From Herbaspirillum sp. SJZ106 (GTDB lineage: Bacteria; Pseudomonadota; Gammaproteobacteria; Burkholderiales; Burkholderiaceae_D), in the NCBI RefSeq assembly GCF_006715495.1, contig NZ_VFNI01000003.1, positions 310,001 through 374,000 of the forward strand: a DNA stretch of 64,000 nt. The letters run 5' to 3'. The position numbers and the translations under genes were made by a program. Positions 36,365 through 49,917 of this stretch are shown one piece after another; the first letter of the stretch is position 1, and each line of letters starts with the position of its first letter. The notes beneath the pieces are model-generated. The model saw only the letters and a program-made list of their open reading frames with translations, did no database searches and had not been told where the DNA came from.

Positions 36365-38041
36365 ATGAAGTCAGGGATCAAAGTGGGTACGCGCCTGGGG
36401 CTCGGGTTTGCGTGGGTGGTGCTGCTGCTGGTGCTGGTGACCGCTTTCGGCATCTACAACATGCACCAGCTGCAGGCGCGCTTCAATAACGTGGTGGAGG
36501 TCAAGAACCCTGAAAGCGCGCTGGTCAAGGACATGATGGACACCGTGGCCGAGCGCTCCATCTCGCTGCGCAACCTGATGCTGCCGGCCGCGCCCGAGGA
36601 TGTCGACATCGAGGCGCAATACATCGACGCCCAGACCCTCAAGTACAAGATGTCGGTGCAGAAGCTGCAGCAACTATTCGAGCAATCGCACGGCACCACC
36701 GACGAGGAAATGGCCGCCCTGCCCAAAATCAAGGCCCAGGCCGACAACGCTGAAAAACTGATCGTCCAGGCGGTGGAGTTCGGCCAGCGCCGCGAAGCCT
36801 ATGAGCTGGCGCAGTTCCTGAAGGACCAATACCTGCCGGTGCAAAAGTCGTGGCAAGTCGAGCTGAAGTCGCTGGCCGTGCTGGAAGACCGGCTCAACAA
36901 GGAGGCCGCCGCCGCCAGCGCCGCCGCCTACGCCCAGGCGCGCCTGCTGATGCTCATCACCAGCGCCATCGGCGTGGTGACCGCCATCCTGGCCGCCATT
37001 TGGCTGACCCGCCACCTGCTGCGCAAGCTGGGCGGCGAACCCGACTATGCGGTGAAGATCGCCGGCCAGATCGCCGAGGGCGACCTGGCGGTGCGCATCA
37101 ATACCCGTCCGGGCGATACCGACAGCCTCATGGTGGCCATGCGCGCCATGCGCGACAAGCTGGCGGCCATCGTGGCCGAGGTACGCAACGGTTCCGAAAC
37201 CATCACCACTGCCTCCTCGGAAATCGCGCGCGGCAACCTCGACCTGTCCTCCCGCACCGAGCAGCAGGCGGGCGCCCTGGAAGAGACCGCCTCTTCGATG
37301 GAACAGCTCAATTCCACCGTCAAGCAGAATGCCGAGAACGCGCACCAGGCCAACGGCCTGGCCCTGGCGGCGTCCGACGTGGCGGTGCAGGGCGGCTCGA
37401 TCGTCTCGCAGGTGGTGGAAACCATGCAGTCGATCAATGCCTCTTCGCAAAAGGTGGCCGACATTGTCAGCGTGATCGACGGCATCGCCTTCCAGACCAA
37501 CATCCTGGCCTTGAACGCGGCGGTGGAAGCCGCGCGCGCCGGCGAGCAGGGGCGCGGCTTCGCGGTGGTGGCATCGGAAGTGCGTTCGCTGGCGCAGCGT
37601 TCGGCGGCGGCGGCCAAGGAGATCAAGGTATTGATCGGCGACTCGGTGGGCAAGGTGGAGAACGGCAGCAAGCTGGTCGAGCAGGCCGGCAGCACCATGA
37701 ACGATATTGTCGCCAGCATCAAGCGCGTGACCGAAGTGATGACCGAGATCACCCACGCCAACAGCGAACAGAGCAGCGGCATCGAGCAGGTCAATGAAGC
37801 CATCATCCAGATCGACGACATGACCCAGCAGAATGCGGCGCTGGTGGAGCAGGCAGCGGCCGCCGCGCGCTCGCTGCAGGAGCAGGCTTCCGGCCTGCAG
37901 CAACTGGTCAGCGTGTTCCGCCTGGATGCCAGCCAGAGCTTGGCCGCGCAAACCTATGCCGGTGACGAGCGCACCATCGATGTCACGCCGGCGGCGCCGG
38001 AGCTGCCGGCCGGCGGCAAGGTGCTGGCGGTGCAGGCCTGA
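36365..38041 (+). CDS. Methyl-accepting chemotaxis protein, Tar/Tsr type
   Basis: A 558-residue transmembrane chemoreceptor. Helix 1 ([20 protein letters not shown]) is near residues 13-32. A ~155-residue periplasmic four-helix-bundle ligand domain follows, then helix 2 ([20 protein letters not shown] near 196-215), HAMP, and the MCP signalling domain with tip [20 protein letters not shown]. The periplasmic sequence [11 protein letters not shown] is common in Oxalobacteraceae receptors. ATG 36365 is chosen for the AGGAGG 7 nt upstream. The ligand is unknown. It lacks a CheR-binding pentapeptide. A strong terminator follows at 38144. Confidence 0.93.
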
Positions 38042-38043
38042 GG

Positions 38044-38074
38044 TTGACATCGTGCGTCCGTTTGCGGGTAGTAT
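38044..38074 (+). promoter_or_regulatory. Promoter-like sequence downstream of the chemoreceptor gene
   Basis: TTGACA (38044-38049), starting 3 nt after the stop codon, and TAGTAT (38069-38074) are separated by 19 bp, slightly longer than optimal. It points to the candidate small RNA. Confidence 0.45.
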
Positions 38075-38172
38075 CCGGCTTGGGATGCAAGCCGGTCTGC
38101 CAGGAATGTGAGACGCCGTAGCAACTGAAGTCTCTCTTCCGCCAAAGCGGCCCGCATGCGGGCCGCTTTTTC
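38075..38172 (+). ncRNA. Candidate small RNA (independent or 3'-UTR-derived)
   Basis: There is no open frame here, but there is ordered RNA structure. A 5' hairpin pairs CCGGCTT (38075-38081) with AAGCCGG (38089-38095). A ~48-nt pyrimidine/purine mixed linker without strong structure follows, then a perfect terminator hairpin with a T run. This is the usual layout of a Hfq-type sRNA. If TAGTAT is the -10, transcription would begin near 38081, inside the first hairpin; processing from the chemoreceptor mRNA is the alternative. I know no matching RNA family. Confidence 0.4.
38144..38172 (+). terminator. Rho-independent terminator after the chemoreceptor gene / candidate sRNA
   Basis: A 26-bp perfect palindrome (38144-38169, AAAGCGGCCCGCA and its complement) is followed by TTTC, giving a run of five Ts. 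Confidence 0.93.
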
Positions 38173-38295
38173 ATTGGCGCGGCCGCGATGCGCCGCCAGC
38201 CAGCATTTCCGCCATTGCCGGTTTTCAGCAGGCTGTTGGAACCGCCATCACAACCGATCCACCCCAGGACACTCGTCCGAACCATGGAGAACCCG

Positions 38296-39180
38296 ATGAA
38301 CGACTTTCGCAAAGACCTCGACAGTTTGCTGGGCCAGAGCAGCCTGTCCGGCGCCCCCGATCGCCGTACTTTCCTCAAGACCGCGCTGGGCACAGGGTTT
38401 GCCGCCGCGGTGCTGCCGGTGTGCGCGCAGACCATGATCAAGACCGACACCGCCGGCCTGACCGCGGGCGAGGTGGCGATCACCTTCAACGGCCAGCGCG
38501 TGCCGGCCTACCGCGCCCAGCCGGAAGGCAAGACCAACCTGCCGGTGGTGATCGTGGTATCGGAGATCTTCGGCGTGCACGAGCACATCGCCGACATCGC
38601 CCGCCGTTTCGCCAAGCTCGGCTACCTGGCCATCGCGCCGGACTTCTTCATCCGCCAGGGCAACCCGCTGGCCTACACCTCGATCGCCGAGCTGCAGAAG
38701 GACATCATCTCCAAGGTGCCTGACGAGCAAGTCATGGGCGACATCGACGCCTTTGTCGCGTGGGCCGGCGAAAACGGCGGCGACACCAGGCGCCTGGGCA
38801 TCACCGGCTTTTGCTGGGGCGGACGCATCGTCTGGCTGTACAGCGCCCACAATCCCAAGGTCAAGGCCGGCGCGGCCTGGTACGGCCGCCTCGTCGGCGA
38901 CAAGAGCGCGCTGTTCCCGCAGCAGCCGATCGATATCGCCCCTTCGCTGAAGGTGCCGGTGATCGGACTGTACGGCGCCAAGGACCAGGGTATCCCGGTG
39001 TCTACCGTCGAGCAGATGAAGGAGGCGCTGCAGAAGGCCGGCAACAAGTCGGAATTCCACGTCTACCCGAATTCCGGCCACGCCTTCAACGCCGACTACC
39101 GGCCGAGCTATGTCGAGGCCGATGCCAAGGATGCCTGGGCCCATGTGGTGGCCTGGTTCAAGAGCCATGGCGTGATTTGA
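38296..39180 (+). CDS. Tat-exported dienelactone hydrolase family protein
   Basis: A 294-residue alpha/beta hydrolase. A twin-arginine signal is visible: DRRTFLKTALGTGFAAAVLP with the Arg pair at residues 23-24. The catalytic triad is Cys in GITGFCWGG near 173, Asp in GAKDQGI near 230 and His in NSGHAF near 262, as in dienelactone hydrolases. The SEIFGVHEHIADIARRFA segment and DFFIRQG are typical of the YghX-like/carboxymethylenebutenolidase group. ATG 38296 is chosen because GGAG lies 6 nt upstream; ATG 38284 is an alternative. Natural substrate unknown; the periplasmic location argues against a role in cytoplasmic chlorocatechol breakdown. Confidence 0.87.
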   Translation: MNDFRKDLDSLLGQSSLSGAPDRRTFLKTALGTGFAAAVLPVCAQTMIKTDTAGLTAGEVAITFNGQRVPAYRAQPEGKTNLPVVIVVSEIFGVHEHIADIARRFAKLGYLAIAPDFFIRQGNPLAYTSIAELQKDIISKVPDEQVMGDIDAFVAWAGENGGDTRRLGITGFCWGGRIVWLYSAHNPKVKAGAAWYGRLVGDKSALFPQQPIDIAPSLKVPVIGLYGAKDQGIPVSTVEQMKEALQKAGNKSEFHVYPNSGHAFNADYRPSYVEADAKDAWAHVVAWFKSHGVI

Positions 39181-39272
39181 TGACGCACCGGCGCGCCGAC
39201 GCCGGCATCGCATTGGTGCGGGTCTGATTCGCATCAATGCGGCGCGCACCAATTTGTGCCGGCAGCATGCGC

Positions 39273-39302
39273 AGGGGACGGAAATTTCCGTCCCCTTTTT
39301 TA
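39273..39302 (+). terminator. Rho-independent terminator of the dienelactone hydrolase gene
   Basis: AGGGGACGGAA and TTCCGTCCCCT pair perfectly (39273-39294), followed by TTTTTTTA. Confidence 0.92.
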
Positions 39303-39316
39303 TTTTCCTGGGCAGT

Positions 39317-39330
39317 AAACACATGTGTTT
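39317..39330. promoter_or_regulatory. Perfect 14-bp palindrome, candidate operator
   Basis: AAACACATGTGTTT, flanked by GGGCA and GCCC, lies in the gene-free 39303-39596 leader of the oxygenase cluster. A second dyad (CCATCGGA/TCCGATGG) lies near 39440-39459. It is a plausible regulator site, but no regulator gene is in the cluster. Confidence 0.45.
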
Positions 39331-39596
39331 GCCCCGCAAAGCAGCGTCGCCGAAGCTGGCACGCGGTTTGCATCATCGTTACCTGAGTAGAAGCGGCTAG
39401 CAGTCGGTTTCACCAGACTTGCGGGGCATTGCTCGTGATGCCATCGGATCCTTCCGATGGTCCTGTGCAATTCGATAGGACACGAGACCATGATCAGCGC
39501 CCATGCCCATCATCCCTTGTTTTTTTCCATGCAGCGGCAGCGTCCATCTGCCATGCACTCCCTTCTTTTAGTGCTGCGTTCCCGGCGAGGCGCGCG

Positions 39597-40622
39597 ATGA
39601 ATGCCGTCGCCGATGCTTCCGCCGATGTTTTCGTTTCCGCCGGGGCGGCGCCGGCACTGTTGCCTTTGCGCGTGGCTGCCGTGCGCGAGATCGCAGCCGA
39701 TGTCCGGCTGTTCGAGCTGCATGCCGCCGATGGCGCGCCGCTGCCGCCGTGGACGCCGGGTGCGCATCTCCGGCTGCACCTGGCCGATGGCCTGGCGCGC
39801 AGCTATTCGCTGTGCAATACGCCGCATGAGCGCGGCTGCTATCGCATCGCCGTCAAGCGCGAAGAGGCTTCGCGCGGCGGTTCTTCCTATTTGCATGAGC
39901 GGGTCGGCGCAGGCGACGTCATCGTCGCGGCGCCGCCGGCCAATGCCTTCGCGCTGGCCGATGACGGACGCGCGCCGGTGCTGCTGGCCGCAGGCATCGG
40001 CATCACGCCGATCTATGCGATGGCCGCCGCGCTGGCCCATGCCGGGCGCAGCCATCGCCTGCACTATTTCGCGCGCAGCTTGCGGCACGCGGCCTTTTTC
40101 GATGAGCTGGCCGTGGCGCAGGCGGGCCTGAGCCTGCACCTGAGGCTGGATGCGGCCGAGACGCAGCTTGCCATCCGCGCCGCGCTGGCGGCTTTGCCGG
40201 CACCCGCGCCGCTGTATGTGTGCGGGCCGCCGCCCTTCATCGATGCCGCGCGCGACGCCGCCCGGCAGGGCGGCTGGCGCGATGCCGATGTGCATGCCGA
40301 ATTGTTCGCCGCGCCGGTCGGCGTTGCTCCCACGGTTGCGGGGCATGCCGGGCAGGACAGCTTCGAGCTGGTGCTGCAGCGCTCCGGCGTGCGCTGCACC
40401 GTGCAGCCCGGACAGAGCATCGTGGACGCGGCGGCCGGGGCCGGCGTGCACATCGCCACCTCCTGCGGCGAAGGATTTTGCGGCAGTTGCGAGAGCATCG
40501 TCATCGAGGGCCAGCCGGTACACCGCGACAGCGTGCTGTCGGCCGCCGAGCGCGCGGCCGGGCGCAGCATCATGCCCTGCGTGTCGCGTTGCGGCGGGCC
40601 GCGGCTGGTGCTGGACCTCTGA
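39597..40622 (+). CDS. PDR/VanB-family oxidoreductase (FMN, NAD, 2Fe-2S)
   Basis: A 341-residue reductase that passes electrons from NAD(P)H through FMN and a plant-type 2Fe-2S centre to a Rieske oxygenase, as VanB does. The flavin-binding RSYSLCNTPHE and the NAD-binding LAAGIGITPIYAMA are near residues 79 and 127. The C-terminal ferredoxin motif SCGEGFCGSC is near residues 289-298, with a further Cys in IMPCVSRC. The ATG has GAGG 6 nt upstream. It is the first gene of the cluster and the obvious redox partner of the Rieske protein encoded 2.2 kb downstream. Confidence 0.92.
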   Translation: MNAVADASADVFVSAGAAPALLPLRVAAVREIAADVRLFELHAADGAPLPPWTPGAHLRLHLADGLARSYSLCNTPHERGCYRIAVKREEASRGGSSYLHERVGAGDVIVAAPPANAFALADDGRAPVLLAAGIGITPIYAMAAALAHAGRSHRLHYFARSLRHAAFFDELAVAQAGLSLHLRLDAAETQLAIRAALAALPAPAPLYVCGPPPFIDAARDAARQGGWRDADVHAELFAAPVGVAPTVAGHAGQDSFELVLQRSGVRCTVQPGQSIVDAAAGAGVHIATSCGEGFCGSCESIVIEGQPVHRDSVLSAAERAAGRSIMPCVSRCGGPRLVLDL

Positions 40623-40658
40623 TTCCATCTTCGATCAACCCACCAAAAGAGGAAGGCT

Positions 40659-41693
40659 ATGAAAAAGCAAGCGCAAGGCAGGCAAGCGATGGACCAGCGG
40701 ACATTCATGATGCGCACCCTGCGCGCAGCCGGCGCCCTGTTGGGCGCGGCGGCGCTGCAGTTTGCGATGGCGGCCGGCGCGCATGCCGAGGACAAGGTCA
40801 CGCTGCTGTCCAACTGGTACGCGCAGGCCGAGCACGGCGGCTTTTACCAGGCCGTGGCCAAGGGCATCTACAAGAAGTACGGCATGGATGTCACCATCAA
40901 GATGGGCGGCCCGCAGGTCAATAACATGCAGATCCTGGTGGCCGGGCAGGCCGACTTCAGCATGGGCTACGACTTCACCGTGATGAAGGGCGTCGAGCAG
41001 GGCTTGCCGCTGGTGACGGTCGGCACTTCGTTCCAGTCCGACCTGCAGGGCATGATGACGCATGACGATGTCGGCAGCCTGGGCGGGCTGAAGAACAAGA
41101 CGATCCTGGTCGCCGGTTCCGGCCAGGCCAGCTGGTGGCCATGGCTGAAATCCAAGTACGGCTACACCGACGCGCAGTCCAAGGCCTATACCTTCAACCT
41201 GCAGCCGTTCTTCGCCGACCCCAATATCGCGCAGCAGGCTTATCCTTCATCGGAACTGTTCCAGGCCGACAAGGCCGGCGCCAAGAGCAAGTTCTTCCTG
41301 TTCGCCAATGACGGCTATCCGCCCTACGGCACCACCATCATCACGCTGCAGAAGACGGTCGCCGCCAGGCCCGACCTGGTGCAGCGCTTCGTCAAGGCCA
41401 CCGCCGAGGGCTGGAAGAGCTACCTGGAAGATCCGGCGCCGGCCAATGCGCTGATCAAGCAAGACAACAAGAACATGAGCGACGAACAGCTGGCCTATGC
41501 GGTGGCCAAGCTCAAGGAATTGAAGGTGGTGACCGGCGGCGACGCCGCCAGGTACGGCATCGGCATCATGACCGACGAGCGCTGGAAGCAGACCTATGAA
41601 GTCATGGTCGCCACCGGTCTGCTCAAGCCCGGCACCGACTACCGCAAGGCCTACACCACCCAGTTCGTCAAGGACATGAAGGTCATGCCTTGA
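40659..41693 (+). CDS. ABC transporter substrate-binding protein, NMT1/ThiY-like
   Basis: A 344-residue exported binding protein. The signal peptide spans about residues 1-43 (LRAAGALLGAAALQFAMAAGAHA-E). The mature start KVTLLSNWYAQAEHGGFYQA matches the NMT1/THI5-like family, whose members bind pyrimidines, riboflavin precursors, sulfonates or nitrate-like anions. Later segments are YKKYGMDVTIKMGGPQVNN, GQADFSMGYDF and LKNKTILVAGSGQ. GAGGA precedes the ATG. With the ATPase and permease downstream it makes a complete importer. The ligand is unknown; neighbours suggest an N-heterocycle. Confidence 0.88.
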   Translation: MKKQAQGRQAMDQRTFMMRTLRAAGALLGAAALQFAMAAGAHAEDKVTLLSNWYAQAEHGGFYQAVAKGIYKKYGMDVTIKMGGPQVNNMQILVAGQADFSMGYDFTVMKGVEQGLPLVTVGTSFQSDLQGMMTHDDVGSLGGLKNKTILVAGSGQASWWPWLKSKYGYTDAQSKAYTFNLQPFFADPNIAQQAYPSSELFQADKAGAKSKFFLFANDGYPPYGTTIITLQKTVAARPDLVQRFVKATAEGWKSYLEDPAPANALIKQDNKNMSDEQLAYAVAKLKELKVVTGGDAARYGIGIMTDERWKQTYEVMVATGLLKPGTDYRKAYTTQFVKDMKVMP

Positions 41694-41749
41694 TGTGAGA
41701 AGGGAGGCGGCGATGCCGCTCCCCGTTTCCCTGCCAGCGTGAGGACGCC

Positions 41750-42739
41750 ATGATCCCCTATACCCCGCCCGGCACCGCGCGCACGATTCCGGTGATCGAC
41801 TTTGCCGACGCCTTCTCTTCCGAGAAAGCCAAGCGCGAAGCGGTCGCCTGGGAAATCCACAAGATCTCGCGCGATGTCGGCTTCTTCTACATCGTCAACC
41901 ATGGCGTGCCGCAAGCGCTCATCGACGGCCAGTTCGACTGGGCGTGCCGCTTCTTCGCATTGCCTCAGGCCAGCAAGTCGGCCATCGACATGCGGCATTC
42001 GCCCTCGGGCTACGGCTACGAGCGCATGGGCGCGCAGGCGCTGGACGACGGCGCGCCGGCCGACCTGAAGGAGGGCTTCCAGTTCGGCTTCGACATCGAT
42101 CCGGCGCATCCCTATGTGCGGCGCGGCCTGCTGCGCTATGGCCACAATCTGTGGCCGGCCGGGCTGCCGGGATTCGAGCAGCATTCGCGCCGCTATTACG
42201 ACGCCATGCGCGCGCTGTCGCACCGCCTGCTGTCGGTGATCGCGCTGTCGCTGCAGATGCCGGAGGACTTTTTCGAGCCGGTGCTGCAAACGCCGATCGC
42301 CACCCAGCGCATGCTGCATTACCCGCCGCAACCGGTGGACGCGCAAGCCAACCAGATCGGCGCCGGTGCGCATACCGACTGGGGCCTGGTCACCATCCTG
42401 GCGCAGGACGAGACCGGCGGCCTGGAAATCTGCAATGCCGATGGCCAATGGGTGCGCGCCACGCCGATTCGCGGCAGCTTCGTGGTCAACATCGGCGATT
42501 TGCTGCAGCGCTGGAGCAACGACCTCTACCACAGCAATCCGCACCGCGTGCTCAACGGCGGCTCGGCGCCGCGCTATTCGCTGCCGTTCTTCCAGGACGG
42601 CGACCAGGCAGCCACCGTGGCCTGCCTGCCGAGCTGTTGCTCGGCGCAACGGCCGGCGCGTTATGCGCCATGCACCATCGGCGACTATCTGGACATGAAG
42701 GTGCGCGAGACCCTCGGCGCCGCCGCGGTACAGGACTAG
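41750..42739 (+). CDS. Isopenicillin N synthase-like Fe(II)/2-oxoglutarate oxygenase
   Basis: A 329-residue oxygenase with the DIOX_N domain (IPVIDFADAF, VGFFYIVNHGVP) and the 2OG-FeII core. The iron ligands are His and Asp in GAHTDWG (near residues 207-209) and His in NPHRV (near 265). The RYSLPFF Arg-x-Ser near 275 binds 2-oxoglutarate. Family members hydroxylate small molecules; thymine 7-hydroxylase and plant hormone oxidases belong here. In this cluster it may hydroxylate the imported heterocycle or a side chain. Its own substrate cannot be read from the sequence. Confidence 0.88.
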   Translation: MIPYTPPGTARTIPVIDFADAFSSEKAKREAVAWEIHKISRDVGFFYIVNHGVPQALIDGQFDWACRFFALPQASKSAIDMRHSPSGYGYERMGAQALDDGAPADLKEGFQFGFDIDPAHPYVRRGLLRYGHNLWPAGLPGFEQHSRRYYDAMRALSHRLLSVIALSLQMPEDFFEPVLQTPIATQRMLHYPPQPVDAQANQIGAGAHTDWGLVTILAQDETGGLEICNADGQWVRATPIRGSFVVNIGDLLQRWSNDLYHSNPHRVLNGGSAPRYSLPFFQDGDQAATVACLPSCCSAQRPARYAPCTIGDYLDMKVRETLGAAAVQD

Positions 42740-42836
42740 ATTTTTTGCATCACCCGGCGAAGGCGACCGTATTGGCGCGCCGGCCGGAGCGCCGCGGCAC
42801 CATGACATCCGCGGCCGACAAGGAAGGAGCAACACC

Positions 42837-43862
42837 ATGCTGGTTACCCAACAAAAAGTCTTGCGCAGGTTCTGGTACGCACTGATGCCCATCTCGATGC
42901 TCAAGGACGGCCCGCAGCCGTTCACGCTGTTGGGCGAGAAGCTGGTCGTCTGGCTGAAGGAAGACGGCACGCCGGCCGCGCTGCAGGACCGCTGCTGCCA
43001 CCGCACCGCCAGGCTGTCCAAAGGCTTCGTCGAGAACGGCAACATCGTCTGCGGCTACCACGGCTGGACTTTCAACGGCGCCGGCGCCTGCGTGCGCGTG
43101 CCGCAAAGCGTGGACGGCAGCGTGCCCTCGGGCGCCTGCGTCAAGTCCTACCATTGCAAGGAACGCTACGGCTACGTGTGGGTGGCGCTGGAAGACCCGC
43201 TGCGCGACATTCCCGACTTTCCCGAGGACGGCGCCCCCGGCTACCGCCGCATCTTCCAGTTCTACGAGCGCTGGGAGACCAGCCCGCTGCGCATGATGGA
43301 AAACTCTTTCGACAACTCGCACTTCAGCTATGTGCATCGCGCCACCTTCGGCCTGTACGACCAGCCCAAGCCGGAGAAGTACGAGATCAACGAGACCGAT
43401 TACGGCTTCGAGGCCGAGACGCGGGTGCCGATCAAGAACGTGCCGGCCAGCTACCGCGTCACCGGCAGCCAGGCCGACACCACCGTGCGCCACATGTTCA
43501 ACCGCTGGTACCTGCCGTTCGTGCGGCGCTTCGGCTGCGAGTATCCGGAAAGCGGCCGCCACCACATCATCTACAACTGCGCCACGCCGATCGACGATGG
43601 TTCCATCATGCTGGCGCAATGGCTGTACCGCAACGACACCGAGGAGGATTGCCCGGAAGCCGAGCTGGTGGCCTGGGATGCGCCCATCCTGGTGGAGGAC
43701 CGCGAGATCCTGGAAGCCACCGATCCGGATGCCTGCGTCGACGTGCGGCGGCGCCAGGAATTCCACATGGCCTCCGACCGCCCCGGCCTGATCATGCGCC
43801 GCATGCTGCTGCAGCTGCTGGAGGAGCATGGCGAGCAGGAAGTCTTCCGCAGCAACGTCTGA
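42837..43862 (+). CDS. Rieske non-haem iron oxygenase, VanA/N-demethylase-like
   Basis: A 341-residue oxygenase component. The Rieske 2Fe-2S motif is C-C-H near residues 53-55 and CGYH near 72-75, 16 residues apart. The mononuclear iron site is NSFDNSHFSYVH near residues 157-168 (bridging Asp, two His). The length and domain order match one-component alpha subunits such as vanillate and dicamba demethylases and the N-demethylases of methylxanthines. O- or N-dealkylation or ring hydroxylation is therefore likely, with electrons from the VanB-type reductase of the same cluster. AAGGAAGGAG precedes the ATG. Confidence 0.92.
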   Translation: MLVTQQKVLRRFWYALMPISMLKDGPQPFTLLGEKLVVWLKEDGTPAALQDRCCHRTARLSKGFVENGNIVCGYHGWTFNGAGACVRVPQSVDGSVPSGACVKSYHCKERYGYVWVALEDPLRDIPDFPEDGAPGYRRIFQFYERWETSPLRMMENSFDNSHFSYVHRATFGLYDQPKPEKYEINETDYGFEAETRVPIKNVPASYRVTGSQADTTVRHMFNRWYLPFVRRFGCEYPESGRHHIIYNCATPIDDGSIMLAQWLYRNDTEEDCPEAELVAWDAPILVEDREILEATDPDACVDVRRRQEFHMASDRPGLIMRRMLLQLLEEHGEQEVFRSNV

Positions 43863-43876
43863 CACGGCAGGGAGCA

Positions 43877-44737
43877 ATGATGCACAGAGACGATTACGCG
43901 ATGTCGCAGGCCGCGGCATTGGACGACACGGGGAGCGGCGGCGAAGATGCGCCGGTGCTGTCGGCGCAGCGGGTGGAGAAAACCTACCGCAACGGCACGC
44001 GCGCGCTGGACGAGGTGAGGCTGGATATCCGGCGCGGCGAGTTCGTCTCGCTGCTCGGGCCTTCCGGCTGCGGCAAGAGCACCTTGCTGAAGATGTTCGC
44101 CGGGCTGGAAGAGCCTTCGCACGGGCATATCCGTTGGTGGGGCAAGAACCTGGCCACGGTCGGCACGCCCGGGCATACGCTGGCCATGGTGTTCCAGGAG
44201 GCCACGCTGATGCCCTGGGCCACGGTGGAACAGAATGCGCGCCTGCCGCTGGACTTGCGCCATATGCCGCGCGCGCAGAGCGAGCCGCGCGTGCGTGAGG
44301 CATTGCAGCTGGTTGGGCTGGAGAAATTCCACCAGGTGCTGCCGCGCGAACTCTCGGGCGGCATGCAGATGCGCGCCTCGATCGCCCGGGCGCTGGCTAC
44401 GCAACCCAACCTGCTGCTGATGGACGAGCCCTTCGGCGCGCTCGACGAATTTACCCGCAACAAGCTCGACGCCGACCTGCGCGACATCTGGAGCAGGCAG
44501 GACCTGACGGTGGTGTTCGTCACCCACAGCATCTACGAGGCGGTGTTCCTGTCCTCGCGCGTGATCGTGATGGCGGCGCGCCCGGGACGGGTGATCGCGG
44601 ACGTGGCGATCGACGCGCCCGGCCCGCGCGACGAGGCCTTCCGCATCTCGGCGCCGTTCATGCAGTACTGCAAGACCCTTTCCGATTACCTGACGCTGGC
44701 CAACCAGCAAGGAGGCGGCCATGCCGGCGAACATTAA
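43877..44737 (+). CDS. ABC transporter ATPase, SsuB/TauB/ThiZ-like
   Basis: A 286-residue ATPase of the nitrate/sulfonate/pyrimidine class. Walker A is GPSGCGKST near residue 60, the Q-loop FQEATLMPWATV, the signature ELSGGMQMRASIARAL near 158 (Met replaces Gln, usual in this class) and Walker B LLLMDEPFGALD near 178. GGGAG precedes ATGATG at 43877. It overlaps the permease gene by 17 bp, so the two are translationally coupled. Confidence 0.93.
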   Translation: MMHRDDYAMSQAAALDDTGSGGEDAPVLSAQRVEKTYRNGTRALDEVRLDIRRGEFVSLLGPSGCGKSTLLKMFAGLEEPSHGHIRWWGKNLATVGTPGHTLAMVFQEATLMPWATVEQNARLPLDLRHMPRAQSEPRVREALQLVGLEKFHQVLPRELSGGMQMRASIARALATQPNLLLMDEPFGALDEFTRNKLDADLRDIWSRQDLTVVFVTHSIYEAVFLSSRVIVMAARPGRVIADVAIDAPGPRDEAFRISAPFMQYCKTLSDYLTLANQQGGGHAGEH

Positions 44738-45524
44738 CCCCCTGGTCAACCGGCCCGGTTTCTGGCGCGTGGCCGCGCCGCTGGGCATCGGCGCGTGCCT
44801 GCTGCTGGCCTGGCAACTGGTGTGCATGTTGCTGGAGGTGCCGGATTACCTGGTGCCGACGCCGGCGGTGATCGCCAGGACGCTGGCGGCGGACTGGGGC
44901 ATGCTGCTGGAGTCGCTGCTGGTGACGCTGAAGATCACTTTCCTGGCCTTCGCGTTCGCGGTGCTGCTGGGCGTGGCGATCGCTTTCCTGTTCGTGCAGA
45001 GTCGCTTCATCGAGATCAGCTTTTTTCCCTACGCGATCATCCTGCAGGTCACGCCCATCGTCGCCATCGCGCCGCTGATCATCATCTGGGTCAAGGACAC
45101 CACGGCGGCGCTGACCGTGTGCGCCACCATCATGGCGCTGTTCCCGATCATCTCCAACACCACGCTGGGACTGCGCAGCGTCAACGCCGGCCTGCTCAAC
45201 CTGTTCAGGCTGAACAAGGCCACGCGCTGGCAGACCCTGAGGCGCCTGCGCATCCCCAGCGCCTTGCCGTACTTCTTCGGCGGTTTGCGCATCTCCAGCG
45301 GCTTGGCGCTGATCGGCGCGGTGGTGGCCGAGTTCGTGGCCGGCACCGGCGGCACCGGTTCGGGGCTGGCCTACCAGATCCTGCAGGCGGGCTTCCAGCT
45401 CAATATTCCGCGGTTGTTTGCGGCCTTGTTCCTGATCACGCTGACCGGCATCCTGCTGTTCTGGATGATGAGCGCCTTGTCGCGCGCCGTGCTGGCGGGA
45501 TGGCATGAGAGCGAAATGGGGTAG
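44721..45524 (+). CDS. ABC transporter permease, SsuC/TauC/ThiX-like
   Basis: A 267-residue inner-membrane permease with about six helices and the typical PTPAVIARTL near residue 50. ATPIVAIAPLIIIW-like sequence (here QVTPIVAIAPLIIIW) and TLGLRSVNAGLLNLFRLN precede the coupling-helix segment LRRLRIPSALPYFFGGLRIS. It forms the channel for the cluster's binding protein and ATPase. The start overlaps the ATPase gene; AAGGAGG lies just before the ATG. Confidence 0.92.
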   Translation: MPANINPLVNRPGFWRVAAPLGIGACLLLAWQLVCMLLEVPDYLVPTPAVIARTLAADWGMLLESLLVTLKITFLAFAFAVLLGVAIAFLFVQSRFIEISFFPYAIILQVTPIVAIAPLIIIWVKDTTAALTVCATIMALFPIISNTTLGLRSVNAGLLNLFRLNKATRWQTLRRLRIPSALPYFFGGLRISSGLALIGAVVAEFVAGTGGTGSGLAYQILQAGFQLNIPRLFAALFLITLTGILLFWMMSALSRAVLAGWHESEMG

Positions 45525-45532
45525 TGCGTGTT

Positions 45533-45560
45533 GCGCGACAACTTTAGCGCGACAACTTTA
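45533..45560. repeat. Exact 14-bp tandem duplication
   Basis: GCGCGACAACTTTA occurs twice head-to-tail (45533-45546, 45547-45560) right after the permease stop and before the composite inverted repeat. Confidence 0.9.
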
Positions 45561-45563
45561 CGC

Positions 45564-45664
45564 CGTCGTCCCGGCGAAGGCCGGGACCCAGCGTCGTGCG
45601 CGGCGTCCGATGTAAAAGCGAACCGCATCAACGCCGCTGGATCCTGACTTTCGTCAGGACGACG
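45564..45664. repeat. Composite inverted-repeat element before the amidohydrolase gene
   Basis: Outer arms CGTCGTC and GACGACG (45564-45570, 45658-45664) enclose two hairpins: GTCCCGGC/GCCGGGAC (45568-45575, 45580-45587) and TCCTGAC/GTCAGGA (45642-45648, 45653-45659). CCAGCG (45588-45593) also pairs with CGCTGG (45635-45640). The pattern is that of widespread proteobacterial mobile intergenic palindromes. It ends 24 bp before the next ATG. Confidence 0.75.
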
Positions 45665-45688
45665 AAGCATCCATCTGGAGTGTCTTGA

Positions 45689-47107
45689 ATGAGTGAATCC
45701 ATCCTTATCCGCAACCTGCAAGCCATCATGACCGGCTTGCCCGGCGCCGCCTCGCGCCACGCCGGCCCGGATATCCGCATCGATGGCGGCACGGTGGCCG
45801 CCATCGGCAAGCTGGCGCCGCAGCCCGGCGAGCGCATCATCGATGCGACCGACTGCGTGGCCTACCCGGCCTGGGTCAACACCCACCACCATCTGTTCCA
45901 GTCGCTGTTGAAGGGCGACCCGATGGGCATCAACGCCAGCCTGACGCCGTGGCTGGCGGCCACGCCTTACCGCTACCGCGCGAAATTCGACGCCGAACTG
46001 TTCCGCCTGGCGGCGCGCATCGGCATGGTCGAACTGATGCGCTCGGGTTGCGGCACCATCGCCGACCACAATTACCTGTACTACCCCGGCATGCCTTTCG
46101 ACACCTCGGAGATCCTGTTCGACGAAGCCGAAAAACTCGGCCTGCGCTTCGTCCTGTGCCGCGGCACCGCCACCCGCACGCGCCAGCTGGAGGCCGAGCT
46201 GCCGAGCGCGCTGCGGCCGGAGACGCTGGACGGTTTCCTGCAGGACATGGCGCGGCTGGCCAAGCGTTTCCACGATCCTTCGCCGGCGGCGCTGCGGCGT
46301 GTGGTGATGGCACCCACCACGCCGCTGTATTCGGCATCTCCCGAGGAATTGCGCGAGATGGCGCAAGCCGGGCGCGCACTCGGCCTGCGCCTGCACAGCC
46401 ATTTGTCAGAAACCGTCGGCTACCAGGACAGCGCGTACAGCATGCATGGCTGCTCGCCGGTGGCGTTCTGCGAGCGCATCGGCTGGCTGGGCCAAGACGT
46501 GTGGTTCGCCCACCTGGTGCAGCTGGACGAGGAGGAGATCCGCCTGCTGGGCGTGACCGGCACCGGCATCGCCCATTGCCCGCAGAGCAACGGCCGGCTG
46601 GGCAGCGGCATTGCGCCGATCCGGGCGCTGGAGGCGGCCGGGGTGCCGGTGTCGATCGGGGTCGATGGCGCAGCTTCCAACGAAGCGGCCGACATGATCT
46701 CGGAAACCCATGCGGCCTGGCTGATGCAGCGCGCGCGGCGCGGCCAGCAGGCCATCCCGGCCTTTCGCGGCGGCGCCTACGAAGGCGGGGCGGACGAGGC
46801 CACGGTGGAAGACGTGGTGCGCTGGGGCAGCAGCGGCGGCGCCAGGGTGCTGGGATTGGGCGCACTGGACGGTTTGCGCATCGGGCAGCAGGCCGATATC
46901 GCGCTCTATCGGCTGGACGATCCGCGCTACTTCGGCTTGCACGACCCGGCCATCGGGCCGGTGGTTGCGGGCGGCCGGCCCGGGCTCAAGTCCCTGCTGG
47001 TCGCCGGCAGGGAAGTGGTGCGCGACGACGCCATTCCCGGCGTCGAACTGGCGGCGCTGGGACGCCAGGCGCGCGATGCCGTGCGGAAACTGTTGGGTAG
47101 TTGCTGA
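45689..47107 (+). CDS. COG0402 amidohydrolase, 8-oxoguanine deaminase-like
   Basis: A 472-residue metal-dependent hydrolase of the TrzA/GuaD/AtzB group. NTHHHLFQSLLKGDPM near residue 63 carries the first His-x-His. Further ligands are in LHSHLSET (near 235) and in the conserved GVDGAASNE (near 324), and IAHCPQSNGRLGSGIAPI is a family hallmark. Such enzymes deaminate purines, pterins or s-triazines; the NTHHHLFQSL segment recalls 8-oxoguanine deaminase. CTGGAG lies 8 nt before the ATG. It closes the oxygenase/ABC cluster although an inverted-repeat element separates it from the permease gene. Confidence 0.87.
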   Translation: MSESILIRNLQAIMTGLPGAASRHAGPDIRIDGGTVAAIGKLAPQPGERIIDATDCVAYPAWVNTHHHLFQSLLKGDPMGINASLTPWLAATPYRYRAKFDAELFRLAARIGMVELMRSGCGTIADHNYLYYPGMPFDTSEILFDEAEKLGLRFVLCRGTATRTRQLEAELPSALRPETLDGFLQDMARLAKRFHDPSPAALRRVVMAPTTPLYSASPEELREMAQAGRALGLRLHSHLSETVGYQDSAYSMHGCSPVAFCERIGWLGQDVWFAHLVQLDEEEIRLLGVTGTGIAHCPQSNGRLGSGIAPIRALEAAGVPVSIGVDGAASNEAADMISETHAAWLMQRARRGQQAIPAFRGGAYEGGADEATVEDVVRWGSSGGARVLGLGALDGLRIGQQADIALYRLDDPRYFGLHDPAIGPVVAGGRPGLKSLLVAGREVVRDDAIPGVELAALGRQARDAVRKLLGSC

Positions 47108-47173
47108 GCAGTCATTGACGTTTTGCTATTGCCGCTGCCCGGCCCGGTTGCATGGGGCGGCAGCCAAAACTGC

Positions 47174-47179
47174 TAAAAT
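47174..47179 (+). promoter_or_regulatory. Extended -10 element 6 nt before the yqgE start codon
   Basis: TGC-TAAAAT (extended -10) is followed by GCGGGG and then ATG, predicting a leaderless transcript. A hairpin with GCTGCC/GGCAGC arms lies just upstream. Confidence 0.5.
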
Positions 47180-47185
47180 GCGGGG

Positions 47186-47971
47186 ATGATCAAGAGACGT
47201 AACGTTCCCTTCAGTTTCTCTGCCGAGGATTTCGACGAATCCGCGGATTCCTTTGGCGGTTTCGATCCTTTCGGCCGCATCCAGGCCCGCCGCGCGGCCA
47301 CAGCTGCAGCCGCGGCAAGCGAGGACGAGGCAGCCGGGGCCGGCGACGATGCCGCCGCCGAAGAGGCCAAGGCTCCGCTGGACCTGGACCTGACCAACCA
47401 TTTCCTGATCGCCATGCCATCCATGCTGGACCCGATCTTCGGCGGCACCGTGGTCTACCTGTGCGAACACAACCACAACGGCGCGCTCGGCGTGGTCATC
47501 AACAAGCCGACCGACATGACCATGGACGTGCTGTTGGATCGCATCAACCTCAAGCTCGAAATCAAGCCCGACACGCCCGACGCCATGCCCGAGGTGTACC
47601 GCCGCCCGGTGATGTTCGGCGGCCCGGTGCAGGTCGAGCGCGGCTTCGTACTGCACTCGGTGCCGCATTCGGCGCCGGATTCCTTTTCTTCCACGCTGCA
47701 GGTGACCGACGGCATCGCCCTGACCACTTCCAAGGACGTGCTGGAAGCGGTGGCGCTGGGCAACGGCCCGGCGCAGGTGCTGGTCAGCCTGGGTTGCTCG
47801 GGCTGGAGCGCCGGCCAGCTGGAAGACGAACTCGGCCGCAACGGCTGGCTGACGGTGAAGGCCGACCCGGCCATCATCTTCGAGCTGCCGGTGGAAGAAC
47901 GTTTCACCGCCGCGCTGGCCTTGCTGGGCATCGACCCGGTGATGCTGTCCGGCGACGCCGGACGCGCCTAG
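47186..47971 (+). CDS. yqgE: YqgE/AlgH family protein with an N-terminal extension
   Basis: A 261-residue member of UPF0301. The conserved domain starts at LTNHFLIAMPSMLDPIFGGT near residue 69 and ends near LLGIDPVMLSG. The family is usually ~185 residues; here ~65 extra residues precede it, including an Ala/Glu/Asp-rich stretch. The upstream -10 element placed right at ATG 47186 supports this long start, and no Met is near the domain border. Function is unclear (AlgH has been linked to alginate regulation). It is followed by ruvX, the conserved order in Betaproteobacteria. Confidence 0.9.
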   Translation: MIKRRNVPFSFSAEDFDESADSFGGFDPFGRIQARRAATAAAAASEDEAAGAGDDAAAEEAKAPLDLDLTNHFLIAMPSMLDPIFGGTVVYLCEHNHNGALGVVINKPTDMTMDVLLDRINLKLEIKPDTPDAMPEVYRRPVMFGGPVQVERGFVLHSVPHSAPDSFSSTLQVTDGIALTTSKDVLEAVALGNGPAQVLVSLGCSGWSAGQLEDELGRNGWLTVKADPAIIFELPVEERFTAALALLGIDPVMLSGDAGRA

Positions 47972-47987
47972 GTTCGGAGCGCGCCGC

Positions 47988-48374
47988 TTGGAGACTTTGC
48001 TTGCCTTCGACTTCGGCCTGAAACGCATCGGCGTGGCCGTGGGCAACACCGGCCTGAAGCAGGCGCAGCCGCTGGCGGTGATCAGCGAGCCGACCAACGA
48101 CGGCAAGTTCGCCGCCGTCGGCCGGTTGATCGCAGAATGGCAGCCCAGCCGCTGCGTGGTCGGCCTGCCGCTGCATCCGGACGGCGCCGAGCACGAGATG
48201 AGCGTGCGCTGCCGGCGTTTCGCCAACCAATTGCATGGCCGCTTCGGCGTCGAGGTGGCGCTGGTCGATGAGCGCTACTCGTCGGCCGTGATCGCGCAGC
48301 AGCGCGGCGAGCAGATCGACGACCAGGCGGCCGCCATCATTTTGCAGCAATACTTTGACGAGTCCGACTCATGA
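47988..48374 (+). CDS. ruvX: Holliday junction resolvase-like protein RuvX/YqgF
   Basis: A 128-residue RNase H-fold nuclease implicated in pre-16S rRNA 5' end processing and anti-termination. LLAFDFGLKRIGVAVGN near residue 4 holds the first catalytic Asp, VVGLPLHPDG the second region with conserved Asp, and VDERYSSAVI the third acidic motif. The start is a TTG at 47988 with GGAG 8 nt upstream. Its TGA overlaps the pyrR ATG, placing it in the yqgE-ruvX-pyrRBC' run. Confidence 0.93.
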   Translation: METLLAFDFGLKRIGVAVGNTGLKQAQPLAVISEPTNDGKFAAVGRLIAEWQPSRCVVGLPLHPDGAEHEMSVRCRRFANQLHGRFGVEVALVDERYSSAVIAQQRGEQIDDQAAAIILQQYFDESDS

Positions 48375-48892
48375 GCACAACAACCTCTACGCCTTCCGCG
48401 CTCGATGCGGAAGCGCTGTACCTGAAGCTGGCGCAGCAGGTCAAGGCCGGCTTGCAGGGCGCGTCCGATGTCGCGCTGGTGGGCATCCATTCCGGCGGCG
48501 CCTGGCTGGCCGAGCGCCTGGCCGATGAGCTCAAGCTGGGCCAGCGCCTGGGTTTCATCGACGTTTCCTTTTACCGCGACGACTTCGCCGAGAAGGGCCT
48601 GCGCCCCGACGTCAAGCCCAGCCAGATCCCGTTCGATGTCGAAGGCGCCACCATCGTGCTGATCGACGACGTGCTCTATACCGGGCGCACCACGCGCGCG
48701 GCGATCAACGAGCTGTTCGACTATGGTCGCCCGGCGCGCGTGCTGCTGGCGGCGCTGGTCGACCGCGGCGGGCGCGAGCTGCCGATCGCCGCCGATTTCC
48801 TGGCCGGGACGGTCACGCTGTCCAAACAAGAAAACCTGCAATTGCAACGCGCCGACGATGGCCGATTCTCCCTGACGGTGGTCCATGCTTAA
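48371..48892 (+). CDS. pyrR: PyrR bifunctional regulator/uracil phosphoribosyltransferase
   Basis: A 173-residue phosphoribosyltransferase-fold protein. The PRPP loop is [20 protein letters not shown] near residue 96, the family signature. Gram-negative PyrR proteins make UMP from uracil and PRPP and may regulate pyr genes; no attenuator hairpin with a PyrR box was recognised here. ATG overlaps the ruvX stop, and its 3' end overlaps the pyrB start by 8 bp, so expression is coupled to aspartate carbamoyltransferase. Confidence 0.95.
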
Positions 48893-49844
48893 TCCACAAC
48901 TGAACAAAAACGGCGAACTGCAACACCTGCTGACCATCGAAGGTCTGCCCAAAGCGATCCTGAACCATATCCTCGACACCGCCTCGTCCTTCGTCAGCAT
49001 CGGCGACCGTGAGGTGAAGAAGGTGCCGCTGATGCGGGGAAAAAGCGTGTTCAACCTGTTCTTCGAGAACTCCACGCGCACCCGCACCACCTTCGAGATC
49101 GCCTCCAAGCGCCTGTCGGCCGACGTGATCAACCTCAACATCCAGGCATCGAGCACCAGCAAGGGCGAGTCGCTGCTGGACACCATCGACAACCTGGCGG
49201 CGATGCACGCCGACATGTTCGTGGTGCGCCACGCGCAATCCGGCGCGCCGTTCCTGATCGCCAAGCACCTGATCGACACCAAGCAGTCGCATGTCCACGT
49301 GGTCAACGCCGGCGACGGTCGCCACGCGCACCCGACCCAGGGCTTGCTGGACATGTACACCATCCGCCACTACAAGAAGGATTTCACCAACTTGCGCGTG
49401 GCGATCGTGGGCGACATCCTGCACAGCCGCGTGGCGCGCTCCGACATCCACGCGCTGACCACGCTGGGCGTGCCCGAAGTGCGCGCCATCGGCCCGCGCA
49501 CCTTGCTGCCCGGCGGCCTGGAGCAGATGGGCGTGCGCGTGTTCCACAACATGGAAGAAGGCCTGAAGGACGTCGACGTCATCATCATGCTGCGCCTGCA
49601 GAACGAGCGCATGAGCGGCGCCCTGCTGCCCTCGGCGCAGGAGTTCTTCAAGAGCTACGGCCTCACGCCCGAGCGCCTGGCGCTGGCCAAGCCGGACGCG
49701 ATCGTGATGCACCCGGGCCCGATGAACCGCGGCGTGGAAATCGATTCGGCCGTGGCCGACGGCGCCCAGGCGGTGATTCTGCCGCAGGTGACCTTCGGCA
49801 TCGCGGTGCGCATGGCGGTGATGAGCATCGTGGCGGGTAATTGA
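48885..49844 (+). CDS. pyrB: Aspartate carbamoyltransferase catalytic chain
   Basis: A 319-residue enzyme joining carbamoyl phosphate and aspartate. The carbamoyl-phosphate signature [20 protein letters not shown] is near residues 60-79; [14 protein letters not shown] (near 146) and [13 protein letters not shown] (near 274) follow. It belongs to the class that assembles with an inactive dihydroorotase homologue rather than with PyrI. The following pyrC' gene supports that. [12 protein letters not shown] is the start, overlapping pyrR. Confidence 0.97.
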
Positions 49845-49917
49845 ATTGCCGGAAACAGCAACACAAGCGAAATAACAGCGACGTTTTGGACGACCTCGTT
49901 AAGAAAATACTGAACTG

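Follow-up and report, generated by a model that had tools for sequence, protein, structure and literature searches.

The xanthine riboswitch (NMT1 RNA) is an OFF switch that binds xanthine and urate and rejects methylated xanthines, as set out in the retrieved text of Yu & Breaker 2020 (PMC7373994). The class has 649 members in their count, and the regulon listed there includes pcbC-like, NMT1/THI5-like, hcaE, PDR and PRK12393 genes, which the same text reads as a purine oxidation system while leaving the dioxygenase functions not established (PMC7373994). Excerpts on the aptamer crystal structure describe ligand position C8 alone as exposed to solvent (PMC8266621).

We analyzed a window (the whole stretch of DNA studied) of 64,000 nt from Herbaspirillum sp. 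SJZ106 (GCF_006715495.1, contig NZ_VFNI01000003.1, positions 310,001-374,000, forward strand). Its predicted seven-gene operon has the aptamer family and gene types of the Yu & Breaker operons. The differences are a deaminase with a threonine motif, which points to pterins rather than to purine oxidation, and a leader open reading frame (ORF) that follows the aptamer. The first-pass annotation had not recognized this exact gene set as a described pathway; the retrieved text of Yu & Breaker 2020 (PMC7373994) puts the class already in print.

Operon organization and linkage in relatives

Domain searches bear out the seven same-strand ORFs that the first-pass annotation had listed and place each in the family it named (Table 1). 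The reductase is the predicted electron partner of the Rieske oxygenase.

Table 1. Features of the operon and its leader, in window positions
Feature	Coordinates	Strand	Evidence
Xanthine riboswitch aptamer (NMT1 RNA, RF03054)	39380..39439	+	cmscan 48.8 bits (gathering cut-off 36), E 1.5e-8
Leader ORF, 36 codons	39490..39600	+	TGA overlaps reductase ATG (ATGA)
VanB-type reductase	39597..40622	+	PF00111, PF00970, PF00175 (Fer2, FAD, NAD domains; FAD, NAD, 2Fe-2S)
NMT1/THI5-like periplasmic binding protein	40659..41693	+	PF09084, 101.7 bits
Isopenicillin-N-synthase-like Fe(II)/2OG oxygenase	41750..42739	+	PF14226 (DIOX_N), PF03171 (2OG-FeII_Oxy)
Rieske oxygenase, predicted to hydroxylate a pterin (or purine) ring	42837..43862	+	PF00355, PF19112 (VanA_C)
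ABC transporter ATPase	43877..44737	+	PF00005, 122 bits
ABC transporter permease	44721..45524	+	PF00528, 90.6 bits
COG0402 amidohydrolase, 2PAJ type, predicted isoxanthopterin/pterin deaminase	45689..47107	+	Amidohydro_1; NF009059/PRK12393, 759.4 bits (cut-off 543)

Among 294 genomes of the family, a Rieske ortholog occurs in 30 and the aptamer in 32, with both in 29. We gathered 80 loci with the Rieske protein, calling genes with a codon score, and 53 of these extend at least 6 kb upstream and at least 7 kb downstream of the Rieske gene. Within 7 kb and on the Rieske strand, these 53 loci carry the deaminase in 50 cases, the ABC ATPase in 50, the binding protein in 49 and the permease in 49, and a same-strand aptamer match lies near the Rieske gene in 50. 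The reductase was detected in 24 and the 2OG gene in 8; outside Herbaspirillum, none of 43 loci has the 2OG gene at 38% identity or above. This arrangement exceeds chance, and the genes remain linked in relatives, where the first-pass annotation had allowed that they might prove unlinked. With synteny conserved, we share its view of a self-contained import, oxygenase and deaminase unit for an N-heterocycle.

The number of oxygenases varies. Two or three Rieske genes are present in 14 of the 80 loci, and at one locus a 2OG gene stands where a Rieske gene would (L157); the majority of loci, within the limits of the 53-locus survey, have a single Rieske gene and lack the 2OG gene. Neighbors in other genera are purine-like (a Tsx-like channel, a xanthine permease, a nucleoside ABC transporter), and purine genes flank the operon in Pseudomonas. 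At one locus from a metagenome-assembled genome (L062) the Rieske gene sits beside xdhABC, a PRK08203-type 8-oxoguanine deaminase and Urate_ox_N; no threonine-type deaminase is seen there, but the contig stops 1.7 kb beyond that Rieske gene. A similar cluster elsewhere (L087) also holds a threonine-type deaminase (54% identity).

Aptamer and leader ORF

The aptamer lies a short way upstream of the seven genes and is the sole RF03054 match in the SJZ106 genome. Both it and the leader ORF lie outside the interval covered by the first-pass annotation, which does not mention them; the aptamer is the strongest clue at the locus. Across the 80 loci its family yields 82 matches, with standard pairs in 96.7% of pair cells and a junction core conserved in relatives. 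Six of 14 pairs are changed on both sides, all within P2, in a covariance check that used a model (R1) itself built from members of the same 80-locus set.

Among relatives in the genus, 19 of 21 distinct cases have a leader ORF 3' of the aptamer that runs into the reductase start, either overlapping it or being fused to it, and the motif GG(A/G)CACGA..ATG, about 50 nt past the aptamer, is kept in 21 distinct leaders. Judged from these sequences, an ORF between aptamer and first gene is a new detail relative to the published riboswitch operons.

In many loci, the nucleotides that follow the aptamer show complementarity to the Shine-Dalgarno region. A locus's own pairs beat swapped pairs, the observed mean being reached by 191 of 20,000 group permutations (70 distinct loci in 16 groups, with start codons chosen by a rough rule). 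When P1 was forced in folding, accessibility of the site rose by more than 0.1 in 11 and fell in 4 of the 38 loci, out of the 70, whose aptamer-to-start distance is at most 140 nt. Such modeling favors neither an ON nor an OFF direction for the switch, and the published OFF result stands.

Enzymes and importer

The deaminase matches PDB 2PAJ at 735 bits and 70% identity (327 of 466 aligned residues), against 255 bits for 3hpa and 245 bits for 7ww2, which are named 8-oxoguanine deaminase / hydroxydechloroatrazine ethylaminohydrolase. It shares the THHHLFQ and APTT motifs with 2PAJ, which we take to be Sgx9339a, the Sargasso Sea isoxanthopterin deaminase; the enzyme was reportedly found by Hall et al. 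in 2010 to be active on isoxanthopterin and pterin-6-carboxylate. The operon context is a feature of the window deaminase, and we met none for the Sargasso Sea enzyme.

The first-pass annotation had likened this protein to 8-oxoguanine deaminase. It does share the COG0402 fold and the HxHxxQ motif with 8-oxoguanine deaminases of the PRK08203 (Pa0142) type, but it scores 388.2 bits against their profile (NF006055), below the cut-off of 532, and reads APTTP where enzymes of that type carry APCSP. The threonine replaces what is presumably their active-site cysteine. It is present in all 69 deaminase orthologs above 55% identity (T-T in 57, T-S in 12), while C-S stands at the matching site in all six paralogs of the other type, three of which pass the PRK08203 cut-off in a scan covering those three. 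We therefore set the likeness aside, together with the candidate view of 2PAJ itself as an 8-oxoguanine deaminase, which was dropped after the Cys/Thr comparison, on the reported work of Hall et al. and on an excerpt that names isoxanthopterin and pterin-6-carboxylate as substrates deaminated by Sargasso Sea members of this amidohydrolase family (PMC5270733). Nine among the 120 relatives listed bear the source name 8-oxoguanine deaminase.

The Rieske protein scores 152 bits against SxtDIOX and 123 bits against NdmA, its predicted model is nearest to NdmA and SxtT, tied, and it is 24-31% identical to NdmA/NdmB and SxtT/GxtA. The motifs CCH 53-55 and CGYH 72-75, which we take to be the 2Fe-2S ligands, are present, as are His162, His167 and Asp288, presumably the iron site. 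Asp281 aligns with NdmA Asn282, and Leu285 stands where NdmA has Phe286; neither the NdmA pair nor that of NdmB (Gln/Leu) occurs. Asp281 is kept in 97 of 97 Rieske rows at 56% identity or above, and as an acceptor it would fit the 2-amino-4-oxo edge common to pterin and guanine. The best solved relatives of the 2OG oxygenase are 9ovh (212 bits), 6jyv (184 bits) and the thymine dioxygenase 5c3p (137 bits).

For the binding protein, the nearest folds to the predicted one are 3ix1, a pyrimidine binder (E 3e-18), and 4nmy, a thiamin binder (E 1.1e-17); TauA is more distant (E 3.5e-11), fold likeness being no proof of ligand. In NCBIfam searches for subfamilies of sulfonate, taurine or nitrate importers, the SsuA profile reached 39.8 bits (cut-off 163.5), the NtrCD ATPase profile 202.7 bits (cut-off 291.8) and the NtrB profile 68.3 bits (cut-off 209), each below its threshold. 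The sulfonate or nitrate ligand that the first-pass annotation had raised against its own proposal is thus not favored by the modeled fold. The literature search returned no NMT1-type solute-binding proteins for purines.

Candidate routes through the operon

The sequence itself shows the aptamer and the leader ORF, the seven genes with their conserved linkage, and the deaminase type. Building on this, we tentatively put forward as the best explanation that the operon imports a pterin-like compound and oxidizes and deaminates it toward xanthine, which would serve as the feedback signal. The binding protein, ATPase and permease would bring in pterin (2-amino-4-oxopteridine), and the Rieske oxygenase, with electrons from the reductase, would oxidize it at C7 (to isoxanthopterin) or at C6. 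For the remaining position a further oxygenase would be used, the 2OG enzyme in this operon and an additional Rieske protein in other genera, and the deaminase would remove the 2-amino group of the oxidized pterin. The resulting tetrahydroxypteridine would undergo ring contraction to xanthine-8-carboxylate and yield xanthine, as in the pteridine degradation of Alcaligenes described in the 1960s, where EC 5.5.1.3 catalyzes the contraction. We identified no gene for a cycloisomerase. A creatininase-family gene present in Ramlibacter-type loci was weighed as a ring opener and rejected, having no match in the SJZ106 genome in a search run without a positive control.

If xanthine is the end product, an OFF switch sensing it would be plain feedback, and the aptamer's presence in 29 of 30 Rieske genomes, with the published OFF response to xanthine and urate, is as end-product feedback needs. 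The Herbaspirillum aptamer would control how the leader ORF is translated, and the ATGA overlap would couple this to the reductase. Tandem Rieske genes and the 2OG substitute at L157 fit a substrate with two oxidizable ring positions, and the modeled likeness of the binding protein to pyrimidine and thiamin binders may lend further support. Counting against the pterin route are the purine-like surroundings in other genera, the equal suitability of Asp281 for guanine, L062, the single-Rieske, 2OG-less majority of loci, and the nine relatives labeled 8-oxoguanine deaminase.

A wider claim, which we regard as doubtful, is that the riboswitch operons at large serve pterin catabolism rather than purine oxidation. 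They would supply what the pteridine-to-xanthine pathway of the 1960s has long lacked, an importer, ring hydroxylases and a deaminase. The RNA would sense xanthine or xanthine-8-carboxylate, which could fit given the exposed C8, and in Herbaspirillum would work through translation of the leader peptide, which would be coupled to the first gene. The listings and excerpts retrieved on xanthine riboswitch operons with a dioxygenase and on 8-oxoguanine deaminase show no pterin reading of the gene set.

We consider it unlikely that guanine is instead imported, hydroxylated at C8 by the Rieske enzyme and deaminated to urate, a molybdenum-free bypass of xanthine dehydrogenase shut off by urate and xanthine. 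Both ligands bind the aptamer (PMC7373994), COG0402 deaminases act on guanine and 8-oxoguanine, with 8-oxoguanine deaminase relatives converting both in the excerpts of PMC6186785, and Asp281, the purine genes in Pseudomonas and L062 are in keeping with such a route. Against it stand the threonine in 69 of 69 orthologs, the sub-threshold PRK08203 score, and the fact that a single C-H position would not call for tandem Rieske genes. The SJZ106 genome also separately encodes GuaD (582 bits), xdhA, xdhB and xdhC, a protein of the xanthine/uracil permease family and a PRK08203 enzyme (751.6 bits), which leaves little need for another purine deaminase and also speaks for the pterin route. Replacement of xanthine dehydrogenase as the reason for the operon's presence was rejected because TIGR02965, matched in 267 of the 294 family genomes, is matched in 31 of the 32 aptamer genomes at E <= 0.001 (over the cut-off in at least 28 of those 31).

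It is improbable that, as reported for the Klebsiella hpx genes, urate is formed from hypoxanthine or xanthine by molybdenum-free Rieske hydroxylation, with the deaminase making xanthine from guanine. A link between the dioxygenases of the regulon and hpxDE is drawn in the retrieved text of Yu & Breaker (PMC7373994), and a reductase with a Rieske protein is the sort of pair that such a route needs. HpxD (AP028202.1), annotated as a molybdenum-independent xanthine hydroxylase, is likewise a Rieske oxygenase, its annotated substrate being a purine; however, identity to this one annotated HpxD is 30% and its residue pair is Asn/Phe, against Asp with Leu, Thr, Val or Ile here, which does not indicate orthology. 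Its neighbors are a rubredoxin and an FAD oxidoreductase, and its stretch holds neither an importer nor a deaminase. Xanthine, as the substrate of this hydroxylation, would moreover be a strange signal for an OFF switch. It is very improbable that methylxanthines or cytokinins, the candidates of the first-pass annotation, or methylguanines are imported and dealkylated before deamination: NdmA/NdmB are among the Rieske relatives, but the model is equally near the hydroxylases SxtT and GxtA, the NdmA pair is absent, the aptamer rejects methylated xanthines (PMC7373994), and the cytokinin papers retrieved concerned plants, with no link to bacterial Rieske enzymes among them.

If the pterin route is true, its ending in xanthine would explain two points that Yu & Breaker did not settle, the role of the regulated dioxygenases and why a xanthine sensor silences them without controlling xanthine breakdown. 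It would also provide genes for a pathway that is, to our knowledge, known from old enzymology only, and would correct the 8-oxoguanine deaminase label for this enzyme family.

Pterin and guanine as candidate substrates

We propose that the operon serves a pterin route, in which the importer would bring in pterin and the ring would be oxidized at C7 and C6 and then deaminated to tetrahydroxypteridine. Alcaligenes converts tetrahydroxypteridine via xanthine-8-carboxylate to xanthine (EC 5.5.1.3). Xanthine would thus be the end product of the pterin route, which would explain a riboswitch turned off by xanthine. The main rival is a guanine route (guanine import, C8 hydroxylation to 8-oxoguanine, deamination to urate), and one locus speaks for it: L062, in which xdhABC, a PRK08203 enzyme and Urate_ox_N surround the Rieske gene, with the reservation that a contig end is near. 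The first-pass annotation described the amidohydrolase of the window as resembling 8-oxoguanine deaminase, a reading we abandon because the protein falls below the PRK08203 cut-off (388.2 vs 532 bits) and carries Thr at the Cys position. It lies above the cut-off of NF009059 (PRK12393; 759.4 vs 543 bits), and its best solved relative, at 735 bits and 70% identity, is 2PAJ, which we take to be the Sargasso Sea isoxanthopterin deaminase. Hall et al. (2010, two papers) reportedly found that the Cys binds O8 of 8-oxoguanine in 8-oxoguanine deaminase, and that Thr residues bind isoxanthopterin in 2PAJ. AP is followed by T-T in 57 and by T-S in 12 of the 69 deaminases with more than 55% identity, a set that contains the window protein, and by C-S in six paralogs of the other type below 55%; the remaining rows below 55% are L087 (T-T), a fragment in L044 (a gap) and the genome's own GuaD (T-S, poorly aligned). 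In the accessible portions of two papers, Sargasso Sea members of the deaminase family act on isoxanthopterin and pterin-6-carboxylate (PMC5270733), and enzymes of the 8-oxoguanine type are described as having an active-site cysteine (PMC6186785).

The nearest structures to the Rieske model (mean pLDDT 84.2) are NdmA with caffeine and SxtT, tied. Its Asp281 occupies the position of NdmA Asn282 and is kept in 97/97 rows of at least 56% identity, whereas an annotated HpxD shares the Asn/Phe pair of NdmA. Asp281 would suit the 2-amino-4-oxo edge of a substrate, which both pterin and guanine possess and xanthine lacks. The 2OG protein is nearest to an ethylene-forming-type enzyme and more distant from thymine dioxygenase. 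For the binding protein (model with mean pLDDT 88.1), the nearest folds are 3ix1, which binds formylaminopyrimidine, and 4nmy, which binds thiamin; since both compounds, like one half of pterin, are aminopyrimidines, these modeled neighbors hint at a pterin ligand.

The xanthine aptamer and the leader ORF

A cmscan of 38000-48500 found a single Rfam family, the xanthine riboswitch aptamer RF03054 (NMT1 RNA), and this match is the only one in the genome. Among 294 family genomes, the aptamer occurs in 32 at E <= 0.001 (29 above the Rfam cut-off), a Rieske ortholog in 30 at E <= 1e-80, and both in 29; Fisher's exact test gives p = 1.4e-35, which overstates the association because the genomes share kinship. 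By match positions, the two lie at most 5 kb apart on one contig in 28 of the 29, with separate contigs in G275. One genome (G010) has the Rieske ortholog without the aptamer, and three (G212, G246, G254) the aptamer without the ortholog. From over 500 loci the 80 top-scoring ones were kept, and in 69 of these our own covariance model, built from 40 aptamers, has a match on the same strand as the Rieske gene; with Rfam's own model, 7/7 lower-scoring loci tried exceed its cut-off, in a recheck that left out the weakest ten (<=41.9 bits, except L044). The P2 stem covaries among relatives. At some loci, two divergent xanthine aptamers share one intergenic region, one facing the operon and the other the opposite side, and Tsx-like channel genes were called next to many of these operons.

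According to the available text of Yu & Breaker 2020 (PMC7373994), the class has 649 members in Proteobacteria, binds xanthine at ~3.7 uM and urate at ~25 uM, and behaves as an OFF switch in a reporter; the associated gene types match those of the window operon. The same text states that the precise dioxygenase functions are not established and that the regulon showed no genes that would break down oxidised purines. The words pterin, lumazine and pteridine are absent from its main text, as are pterin and lumazine from the available part of the structure paper (PMC8266621).

The Shine-Dalgarno region is complementary to the aptamer's 3' P1 strand and the next three bases (e.g., CTCGTG/CACGAG) in the window and other loci, with matching changes between genera; judged by sequence, this pairing could set the direction of the switch. 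When 38 loci were folded with P1 forced, accessibility of the site rose by more than 0.1 in 11 and fell in 4. A leader ORF lies between aptamer and first gene in the window and in L009-L021 and L091-L119, and within the genus GG(A/G)CACGA..ATG is kept ~50 nt 3' of the aptamer. The motif is present in 33 of 44 stretches (21 distinct sequences); eight have the aptamer but not the motif in its strict form, two of which (L091, L095) show a looser motif with ATGA overlap, and in three the aptamer pattern was unmatched. Among the 21 distinct leaders, 16 (31-61 codons) overlap the reductase by an ATGA stop/start, three are fused to it in frame, one has ATGA at the binding-protein gene, and one (L017) has TGATG at an ORF running into the binding protein. 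That the 16 ATGA leaders have nine different lengths, all in the coupling frame, argues for translation of the leader. Folding predicts the reductase's own ribosome site in the window to be closed (unpaired 0.01), as coupling to the leader would need.

Gene order among relatives and other purine genes

The first-pass annotation's seven same-strand genes are borne out by ORFs and domain families. The synteny that it proposed to search for is conserved, with a varying oxygenase module, in the 80 top-scoring loci, out of over 500, from a scan of genome contigs with the Rieske protein (orders from our own gene calls). The order SBP-Rieske-ATPase-permease-deaminase, with or without reductase, occurs in 34 loci and the Herbaspirillum order (reductase first, 2OG gene) in 9. 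Another 8 show a Ramlibacter/Polaromonas order that includes a pair of Rieske genes; in all, 14 of the 80 loci have two or three such genes. Importer and deaminase also follow an aptamer where the Rieske gene is missing, in L157 (G246) with a 2OG gene and in L159 (G254) with neither within the operon, a 33% identical 2OG gene lying divergently. From these orders and L157/L159, importer and deaminase form the constant part of the operon, and the variation lies in its oxygenase module. In the same 80 loci, Rieske identity to Herbaspirillum, the nearest named relatives, reaches at most 96%. Ramlibacter/Polaromonas loci also have two binding proteins and, as steady neighbors, creatininase-family, RidA-family, FAD_binding_4 oxidase, flavodoxin-like and RutR-like TetR genes. 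The gene order 3' of the window operon was also called beside it in many Herbaspirillum loci.

Features and loci of the operon, its relatives and the source genome
Feature	Record	Position	Remark
RF03054 aptamer	window	39380-39439	
P1-3'/Shine-Dalgarno complementarity	window	39430-39490	
Leader ORF	window	39490-39600	
Seven-gene operon	window	39597-47107	
yqgE/algH-like (PF02622), ruvX, pyrR, pyrB (aspartate carbamoyltransferase), dihydroorotase	window	47186-51204	3' of operon
Dienelactone-hydrolase-family gene	window		upstream of operon
GuaD, xdhC, xdhB, xdhA, xanthine/uracil permease family gene, PRK08203 enzyme	C1	864-896 kb	
Second COG0402 deaminase	L126	8846-10216	
xdhA-xdhB-xdhC, PRK08203 8-oxoguanine deaminase, ATPase, permease, binding protein, Rieske, Urate_ox_N	L062	800-12240	MAG
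Rieske relative, 55% identity	L090	10001-11044	Variovorax plasmid record
Two divergent aptamers	L029, L030, L031, L038, L045, L046, L050, L051, L053, L054, L056, L059		
Ramlibacter/Polaromonas order	L040, L049, L052, L055, L061, L067, L072, L081		

The source genome (4.58 Mb; window on contig C3) has a second COG0402 deaminase that exceeds the PRK08203 cut-off (751.6 bits). By its gene content it has every step of the ordinary purine route up to urate; the operon would add something else or a bypass.
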